Shown here in pieces: positions 28,923 through 31,491 of a DNA stretch of 64,000 nt. Source of the stretch: a bacterium (GTDB lineage Bacteria > Electryoneota > RPQS01 > DYHQ01); contig JAUXGA010000001.1 of the NCBI GenBank assembly GCA_030622545.1, positions 310,001 through 374,000 of the forward strand. The letters run 5' to 3'. The position numbers and the translations under genes were made by a program. The first letter of the stretch is position 1. Every line of letters begins with the position of its first letter. A model generated the notes under the pieces. The model made no database searches and was not told the origin of the DNA. It saw only the letters and a program-made list of their open reading frames with translations.

Positions 28923-28966
28923 GGAAGTTCTCATCCGGGGGATGCCTGGCGATGAATGGAACTTCC
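28923..28966 (+). promoter_or_regulatory. 13-bp hairpin with an ATG bulge at the start of the ZapB-like gene
   Basis: GGAAGTTC (28923-28930) pairs with GAACTTCC (28959-28966), and TCATC (28931-28935) pairs with GATGA (28951-28955). The only interruption is a 3-base bulge, ATG (28956-28958), which is the first in-frame start codon of the next gene. The structure may control translation of that gene or mark an mRNA processing site. Confidence 0.55.
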
Positions 28967-29267
28967 CAAGATGCCACACATCATTCATATTGGAAGGGCA
29001 AATCAATCCGTGGATACCCAGGCTTTTGATATTCTCGAACAGAAAGTAACCCAAGTTCTTGAAAAACTTGGCCGTTTACAGTCCGAAAACGAAAAATTGC
29101 GCTCGCAGGCAAAGGACTGGGAGACTCGTTATAAGGAGGCTTCCCAGAAATTGGAGGGGGTAACGCGAGAGCGGGACTCGCTGGCAGAAAACCAGCGCGA
29201 TGTCGATAAAGATGAGCGCATTCGCCAGAAGGTGGCGGAGCTTCTCGCACGTCTGGAAGCGGCCTAA
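28956..29267 (+). CDS. ZapB-like coiled-coil cell division protein
   Basis: A 103-residue protein that is almost entirely one coiled coil from about residue 20 (FDILEQKVTQVLEKLGRLQSE) to the end, rich in Glu, Lys, Gln and Arg with leucine heptads, like ZapB. It lies directly before zapA, and ZapA and ZapB work together to link FtsZ filaments. The first 20 residues (MPHIIHIGRANQS) are unusual for ZapB. Start alternatives are 28956, inside a hairpin, and 28971, just after it; neither has a strong ribosome binding site. Identification rests on size, coiled coil and position. Confidence 0.75.
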   Translation: MELPKMPHIIHIGRANQSVDTQAFDILEQKVTQVLEKLGRLQSENEKLRSQAKDWETRYKEASQKLEGVTRERDSLAENQRDVDKDERIRQKVAELLARLEAA

Positions 29268-29323: not shown

Positions 29324-29614
29324 ATGGATGATCGGGAAAAAACGGTTCAAGTCACGATTTTCGAGCAGGAATGCTCCGTTAAAGGTGACGCAGACGCGGA
29401 TTATATTCGGCGGGTGGCGGAATATGTCGATGCCCGAATGCGCGCAGGACGCGCGGCACAGCCCTCTAAGCCTCCTCTCAAAATTGCCATAATAACAGCC
29501 CTGAACCTTGCCGACGAGCTTCTGGCCTGTCAGCGGGATAAAGAGGAACTCCTTTCGCGATTTGAAGAAAAGGCTCGAGAATTTTCCGACAGTCTGAACC
29601 GGGGGCTAACGTAA
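29324..29614 (+). CDS. zapA: Cell division protein ZapA
   Basis: A 96-residue ZapA. The N-terminal FtsZ-binding head VQVTIFEQECSVKGDADADYIRRVAEYVDARMR is typical, followed by a C-terminal coiled coil (ALNLADELLACQRDKEELLSRFEEKA). ZapA bundles FtsZ at the division ring. Start chosen at ATG 29324, which gives the usual length; a TTG/ATG pair at 29291-29294 would add 11 residues. The following gap holds a structured RNA, as in many bacteria where the 6S RNA gene follows zapA. Confidence 0.93.
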   Translation: MDDREKTVQVTIFEQECSVKGDADADYIRRVAEYVDARMRAGRAAQPSKPPLKIAIITALNLADELLACQRDKEELLSRFEEKAREFSDSLNRGLT

Positions 29615-29689: not shown

Positions 29690-29906
29690 TTTAAAAATCC
29701 CTGCTTGAGCCAGGCATTTAAGAACCACAAAGTTAAATGCATGGGAGCCCGACTCTGGCGTCTATTGCAAGCCTGAAATCCCGCATGCGGGATTCCGCTC
29801 GACTTTCGGTCGATGACGGATAGAGGAAGCGAGAACCGTACAGGAGGGCACCCACCGTTATGTACCAGGTTCTTGGTACAGGCCGCCTTGCAGGGATTAT
29901 TTTTTT
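29690..29906 (+). ncRNA. Candidate 6S RNA (ssrS)
   Basis: No protein gene fits between zapA and rny. The sequence can fold into a long 6S-like rod: closing stem AATCCCTGC (29696-29704) with GCAGGGATT (29890-29898), second helix AAGAACC (29720-29726) with GGTTCTT (29868-29874), an open central bubble (29727-29741 and 29855-29867), then apical helix TGGGAGCCC (29742-29750) with GGGCACCCA (29846-29854; one A-A mismatch) and smaller hairpins beyond. The closing stem is followed by seven T, serving as terminator. 6S RNA mimics an open promoter and sequesters housekeeping RNA polymerase. The zapA-6S-rny position is known from other phyla. Both strands of the second helix can instead form local hairpins, suggesting two conformations. 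The 5' end is estimated. Confidence 0.72.
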
Positions 29907-29925: not shown

Positions 29926-31491
29926 ATGAACACTTTAATTATTGTTGCGATAATAGGGGGGATAGGCATTGTTGTCTTCTTTATTATCGGATGGTTCATT
30001 GGAAAGCAGCTGGAACGAGGACGCTACCTCAGAGCGCAGCGGGATGCTGACCGCATTATCTCGGATGCTCAAAAAGAAGTCGAGACCATGTTCAAGGAGA
30101 AGCTTCTCGAAGTCAAAGATGAGCAGCTTCGCCTAAAGGGGAAACAAGAAGCGGAACATCGCCGCAAACTTGACGAAATCGCACGGTCGGAGCGAAGCAT
30201 CCGGGATAGGGACGCCAATGTGAAATCCCGGCTTGAAGCGAGCGACAAGCGCGACAAGGAATCGGAAAAACTCCAGCAGCAATTAGGACAACGCGACAAA
30301 GCCGTTCGTGAAAAGGAAGAGGTGATTGACGCGCTGGTCGAGGAGCAAAAGGCCGCTCTCGAACGTGTCAGTCAGTTGACTCAGGAACAGGCAATTGAAG
30401 AGCTTAAAGAGCGCCTTCTGGAAAAGGCAAAAGAACAAACCGCTGAAATGATGAAGGAGATGCGCGACCGGGCTCGGCAGCAAGCGAACCGGGAAGCCAA
30501 AGAGATTGTCATATCAGCGATTCAGCGTACCGCCGCCGACCATTCGGTTGAAACAACCGTTTCGGTCGTCCATCTGCCGAATGATGAAATCAAAGGACGG
30601 ATTATCGGGCGTGAGGGGCGCAATATCCGGGCATTTGAACAAGCCACTGGCGTCGATATTATTGTGGACGATACACCCGAAGCCGTGATTATTTCAGCCT
30701 TTGATCCTCTGCGAAGAGAAATCGCCCGCCAGACTCTCGAAAGGCTCATGGCCGATGGCCGTATTCATCCCGCTCGCATCGAAGAGCTTGCCAAGAAATG
30801 CGAGAAGGAGATGGAGGAGCAGCTTGTTGAGGCCGGTGAAAACGCGGCTATGGAAGCTGGGGTCGTCGGTTTGCACGGCGAACTTATCAAAACCATGGGA
30901 CGGCTGAAATATCGCACAAGTTATGGGCAAAATGTGCTTCAACATTCCATTGAAGTCGCGCATCTGGCAGGACTGATGGCGGCTCAGCTTGGATTGGATG
31001 GCAAGATGGCCAAGCGCGCCGGCTTCCTGCACGACATCGGCAAAGCTATAGACCGCTTCACAGAAGGAACGCATGTGACCATCGGCGCCGATTTAGCGAA
31101 GAAATATCGTGAGCCGAGAGTAGTACAAAACGCGATTTCCGCTCATCACGGAGATGAGGAATCCACATCACTCATCGCGGTGCTCGTGCAGGCCGCCGAT
31201 GCGATTTCCGGGAGTCGTCCCGGAGCGCGCCGTGAAACTCTGGAAGCCTATATCCAGCGACTGGAAAAGCTTGAAGAAGTGACCAAATCATTCTCCGGCG
31301 TGCAGAAGTGTTTTGCGATTCAAGCAGGCCGGGAGATTCGCGTCATCGTCGAACCGGAGAAGGTCAACGATGCTCGCGCCGAAGCTCTGGCGCACGATGT
31401 GGCGGAACGCATTCAGGAAGAAATGGAATATCCGGGACAGATTCGCGTCACGGTCGTACGGGAATTCCGAGCCGTAGAATTTGCGAAGTAG
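29926..31491 (+). CDS. rny: Ribonuclease Y
   Basis: A 521-residue membrane-anchored endoribonuclease that initiates mRNA decay. In order: an N-terminal transmembrane helix (residues 3-24, [20 protein letters not shown]), a long coiled coil (30-200), a KH domain with [21 protein letters not shown] (about 215-280) and an HD domain with [13 protein letters not shown] and the metal-binding HDIGK (about 335-430). The start at 29926 is preferred over an upstream ATG at 29860 because GGGAGG precedes it, it gives the canonical anchor, and 29860 lies inside the preceding RNA. ymdB follows 4 bases downstream. Confidence 0.97.

Follow-up and report, generated by a model that had tools for sequence, protein, structure and literature searches.

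A divergent 6S RNA between zapA and rny, with a P2 region that was probably remodelled within one bacterial order

Bacteria restrain their RNA polymerase with a small RNA, the 6S RNA. This molecule is a mimic of the open promoter, and the synthesis of a product RNA on it unwinds the helix P2; the product RNA pairs with the 5' side of the central bubble and with the 5' strand of P2 (excerpts of PMC8876501). The same excerpts indicate that the known 6S RNAs respond to this opening in different ways. In Escherichia coli, unwinding of the downstream helix allows the 3' side of the bubble to fold into a 9-bp hairpin; in the 6S RNAs of Bacillus subtilis (6S-1) and Aquifex aeolicus, a central bubble collapse helix joins the 3' strand of P2 to the distal part of the 5' bubble (PMC8876501). 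A structurally related molecule, Ms1 RNA, also binds polymerase (PMC9130861); it is described from Actinobacteria, as a ligand of the core enzyme. As regards genomic setting, the gene order zapA-6S-ygfA has been described for Gammaproteobacteria (excerpt of PMC9788540, citing Wehner 2014).

Here, we examine a stretch of 64,000 nucleotides (the window) in which positions 29695-29900 of the forward strand hold what is probably the 6S RNA of this bacterium, with a P2 region remodelled within the order to which its genome belongs. These limits are those of the match to the Rfam 6S family (RF00013); a covariance model of our own (R1, see below) covers the equivalent of 29696-29899. The initial annotation of this DNA had already proposed a 6S RNA and had suggested the Rfam model as a check. 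Run against the window with relaxed thresholds, that model aligns over its full length (model positions 1-187 of 187; 34.2 bits, E 2e-5), and across the whole genome of 2.66 Mb it has one match only, this locus (E 3e-5). The score falls short of the gathering cut-off of 46.4 bits, which is a curation threshold and not a biological property, and for this reason the homology was tested independently. At Rfam's own cut-offs a scan of the window returned tRNAs only, and an all-family scan of the stretch gave no match to Ms1 at E values up to 10, the inclusion of an Ms1 model in the library being uncertain. A match of 14.2 bits to the Na+ riboswitch at the 3' end of the RNA was dismissed as a product of chance.

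By blastn, the RNA was found in 10 of the 12 other genomes of the order; the two that gave no match are a genome whose contig begins within rny (G010) and one that is 56% complete and in which rny was undetected (G012). The model R1, built solely from the 11 order sequences, detects the RNA in 35 of the 39 genomes of the phylum, and G038 and G014 carry it too, their loci scoring 25.8 and 37.9 bits with R1, respectively. Six loci from sister families exceed the Rfam 6S cut-off in their own right, syntenic homologues in family f5 among them. R1 also matches genomes outside the phylum, where two of the loci that it found (L143 and L145) have Rfam 6S scores of 61.6 and 63.7 bits. The chain of homology that leads from the window to the order, from there to the sister families and finally to curated 6S RNA is thus closed. 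R1 has no match at the ssrS gene of E. coli, so that the link to this organism runs through the Rfam model and the intermediate loci; its additional matches to the opposite strand in some members are due to the near self-complementary shape of the RNA. Backed by the full-length sub-threshold Rfam match, by conservation in the same gap throughout the phylum and by the reach of R1 to loci above the Rfam cut-off, the original identification stands: this is a real 6S RNA, too divergent for the cut-off of Rfam. A 6S RNA is now known in nearly every genome of the phylum, whereas only six of the 39 have a match above the cut-off of the Rfam model.

The 217-nt gap in which the RNA lies folds at -79.5 kcal/mol, compared with a mean of -61.1 +/- 4.3 for shuffled sequences (z -4.3; 0 of 200 shuffles as good). 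The consensus structure of the 11 order members has the rod shape of a 6S RNA, with a closing stem, P2, a central bubble and an apical arm, and for 14 of its 57 pairs at least one member has both partners changed. The closing stem is formed by ATCCCTGC (29697-29704) and GCAGGGAT (29890-29897), and nearly all of its pairs are invariant in the order. The apical arm extends from GGGAGCCC to GGGCACCC (29743-29853) in the RNAalifold consensus, which includes pairs changed on both sides, and its tip carries two hairpins that vary by lineage. The closing stem had been thought to double as an intrinsic terminator. In all 11 order members it is followed by at least six T within 8 nt (in the window, the 3' strand and its T tract together occupy 29890-29906), and stem and tract plausibly act as a terminator; a generic terminator scan, however, gave no score, as a stem with so long a loop is not scored by it. 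A generic promoter scan found no promoter-like site upstream of the RNA.

The class of this RNA is already known; what is new is an order-specific rearrangement around P2. The core of this helix joins AAGAACC (29720-29726) to GGTTCTT (29868-29874), both of which are invariant in the 11 order members. Each strand is also part of a perfect local hairpin. On the 5' side this is GCATTTAA-gaaccacaaag-TTAAATGC (29714-29740, with arms at 29714-29721 and 29733-29740), whose loop contains the GAACC of the core; on the 3' side it is TGTACCA-ggttct-TGGTACA (29861-29880, with arms at 29861-29867 and 29874-29880), whose loop is the 3' strand of P2. All three pairings had been put forward in the initial annotation and lie exactly where it had placed them. 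The gap contains perfect local inverted repeats (7 bp or more, loop of 3-15 nt) in four start/loop combinations, which represent three hairpins; 0.17 repeats of this length are expected by chance and none of 500 shuffles equalled the observed count. Alternatives that compete with P2, such as a 6S RNA should possess, are found on both sides. The 3' strand has an additional potential partner after the apical arm, where GAGAACC (29831-29837) could pair with GGTTCT (29868-29873). This motif is present in 9 of the 11 order members, the other two having AAGAACC and AAAACC, and in sister families its position reads AGAAACG or AAAAACG.

The order shows no variation in the P2 core, so covariation is silent there, and in the wider set the 5' strand of the core is also nearly invariant, as (A/G)(A/G)GAACC. 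The flanking pairs were analysed with a swap test, which compares the pairing energy of a genome's own strands with that of strands exchanged between genomes (5000 permutations), in the 11 order sequences and in 26 sequences from outside the order, three of these from outside the phylum. The permutations take no account of relatedness, and the contrast between the two groups is the stronger argument. Outside the order, the extension of P2 is genome-specific (-6.2 kcal/mol for own strands and -2.6 for swapped ones; 0/5000), and the 5' hairpin gives no signal (-5.8 versus -5.5 kcal/mol). Inside the order the situation is reversed: the 5' hairpin is genome-specific (-12.3 own versus -8.9 swapped kcal/mol; 0/5000), with several pair types at most of its positions (e.g. 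U-A, A-U and C-G; ranks are counted from the loop and registers are approximate), and the P2 extension gives no clear signal (-4.2 versus -3.8 kcal/mol; 378/5000). The 3' hairpin that straddles GGTTCT has a mean energy of -11.4 kcal/mol in the order, where it is almost invariant (593/5000) and its inner pairs show little covariation; outside the order a hairpin in this place yields no signal (-2.1 own versus -2.5 swapped kcal/mol). The covariation that had been anticipated for both conformations is thus found for the 5' hairpin inside the order and for the P2 extension outside it, but hardly for the 3' hairpin. The swap test was also applied to the canonical hairpin of the 3' central bubble, which would lie immediately before GGTTC, and gave no covariation signal in the order or outside, although neat single-locus examples of it exist, such as CCGTACATAGTACGG in L024.

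Two local variants of these regions may be mentioned separately. In one clade (L008, L009 and L011, from genomes G005, G002 and G008), the region of the 5' hairpin contains the palindrome TTCTTGATTCAAGAA, which could hide the AAGAA of the P2 core in another local hairpin. The 3' part of L125 (G021) reads GGTTCTTTGAACC, and there the 3' strand of P2 is able to pair with a downstream GAACC as a small hairpin.

The folding energies, which leave aside protein and tertiary contacts, also differ between the two groups. In the partition function the mean probability of P2 is 0.04 for the order (above 0.5 in 0 of 11 members) as against 0.59 outside it (15 of 26), the latter figure being an underestimate, with the core anchor one or two bases off in L139, L141, L020 and L145. 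Both hairpins are predicted to form in 9 of the 11 order members and in none of the 26 other sequences, and constrained folding favours the two-hairpin state over P2 by 1-6 kcal/mol in nine members of the order. For the RNA of the window itself the two states are nearly equal (P2 -76.6, both hairpins -75.9 kcal/mol), and the optimum at -79.2 kcal/mol is neither of them: it retains the 5' hairpin, with GGUUC paired to the GAGAACC at 29831-29837. When the 5' strand is blocked in the folding, the 3' hairpin prevails in 9 of the 11 order members, and GAGAACC becomes the partner of GGUUC in the window and in G008. Within the order, then, the predicted ground state consists of the hairpins and not of the long-range helix.

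It could be argued that this is an ordinary 6S RNA that adopts a standard P2 in the cell and that energy-based folding produces the hairpins largely as an artefact. Such a view draws on the invariance of the core in the order, on the covariation of its extension elsewhere and on an energy in the window that is no worse than that of the two-hairpin state; RNAalifold applied to the order alignment also gives P2, but this alignment places the arms of the 5' hairpin in different registers in different clades, which penalises the hairpin. What makes a standard P2 unlikely, in our judgement, is that the 5' hairpin covaries inside the order, where none of the 5000 swaps matched it and where the signal of the P2 extension is lost, and that the stability of the 3' hairpin in the order is well beyond that seen in any sister family.

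The two hairpins could, alternatively, coexist in the working RNA, with a kissing interaction of AGAACC with GGUUCU in place of the continuous P2 and no large refolding. The overlap with P2 is indeed marginal: in the window, the 5' hairpin shares two nucleotides with it (A29720-A29721) and the 3' hairpin a single one (T29874). Both loops leave their core strand exposed (mean probabilities of being unpaired 0.77 on the 5' side and 0.64 on the 3' side), the 3' loop consists of exactly the six nucleotides GGUUCU in most order members, and the 6-bp duplex between the loops has a predicted energy of -8.3 kcal/mol in all 11. This complementarity, however, is inherited from P2 and so makes the kissing form possible without being independent evidence for it, and none of the papers searched links kissing loops with the central bubble of 6S RNA. 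We consider this arrangement doubtful; if it were true, open-promoter mimicry and release in the order would rely on a tertiary contact instead of a continuous P2. These considerations also qualify the initial claim that the conformations are mutually exclusive and that either hairpin breaks the long-range helix. Comparative data do back the existence of alternatives to P2, and the claim holds for a nested P2 duplex; it does not hold for pairing between the loops, both of which contain the GAACC/GGTTC core, and there coexistence is possible.

We favour the interpretation that this order has probably turned the P2 region into a pair of hairpins with loops that are still able to pair with each other. 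The flanks of P2 would have been remodelled in such a way that the core strands AAGAACC and GGUUCUU are displayed in the loops of two hairpins, of which the 5' one covaries and the 3' one is conserved. The RNA would occupy the housekeeping RNA polymerase, which would be freed when it copies a short product RNA from its ligand. In the polymerase-bound RNA the core would serve as the downstream duplex. By analogy with the 6S RNAs described above, a product RNA copied from the 5' strand would cover AAGAACC, and the 5' hairpin or the P2 core would unpair; the local hairpins, energetically favoured already, might then keep the RNA in its released shape. The tie between the two conformations and polymerase release is taken from the 6S literature, and on that footing the order would seem to reach the released state in a way of its own.

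The 6S RNA of E. coli (SsrS, RF00013) is similar in its closing stem, P2, central bubble and apical arm, in its upstream neighbour zapA and, according to the excerpts of PMC8876501, in a 3' bubble hairpin that acts as a competitor of P2. It differs in that the 3' hairpin of the window RNA straddles the 3' strand of P2 and encloses GGUUCU in its loop, and in that the window RNA has an extra 5' hairpin, is followed by rny and not by fau, and has an Rfam score under the cut-off. As in B. subtilis 6S-1 and A. aeolicus 6S RNA, P2 would by analogy be opened by the product RNA and an alternative pairing would take over; in place of their collapse helix, however, the window RNA has a separate local hairpin for each strand of P2 and carries that strand in the hairpin loop. 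From Ms1 the window locus is set apart by its match to the 6S model. What takes the place of the helix opened by product-RNA synthesis varies between sister lineages, and this natural experiment makes the role of the local hairpins in polymerase release directly testable.

The gap is bounded upstream by a gene at 29324-29614 (+) that, by recognition, we take to be zapA, and downstream by rny (RNase Y; 29926-31491, +), the product of which has about 50-60% identity to proteins from Firmicutes and other phyla, with matching lengths. As judged by tblastn both neighbours are syntenic and flank the RNA in the loci examined from the order and the rest of the phylum, barring neighbours that were undetected by tblastn or unassembled. 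The RNA is located directly upstream of rny in 34 of the 35 R1 matches in the phylum, the exception being G019. Two nearly complete genomes of family f4, G019 and G014, carry the 6S RNA but yielded no rny; in G014 the neighbours of the RNA are zapA and a ymdB-like gene. This suggests that rny was lost from the cluster. In E. coli the order is zapA-ssrS-fau, and together with the gammaproteobacterial arrangement this makes the zapA side the shared part of the synteny. A cis-acting role as leader of rny, with the RNA as an autoregulatory structure in the 5' UTR and not a 6S RNA, could be argued from the short distance between its end and this gene, from the terminal T tract and from the widely conserved adjacency. 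Such a role is highly improbable, given an Rfam 6S match that spans the full length of the RNA, its retention in the two genomes where rny was not found and the position of the E. coli 6S gene between zapA and fau. On the other side of zapA, between this gene and pheT, an open reading frame for a coiled-coil-like protein of 103 aa (window 28956-29267, +) has the same place in all the order genomes examined, and it may encode a ZapB-like or similar division protein.
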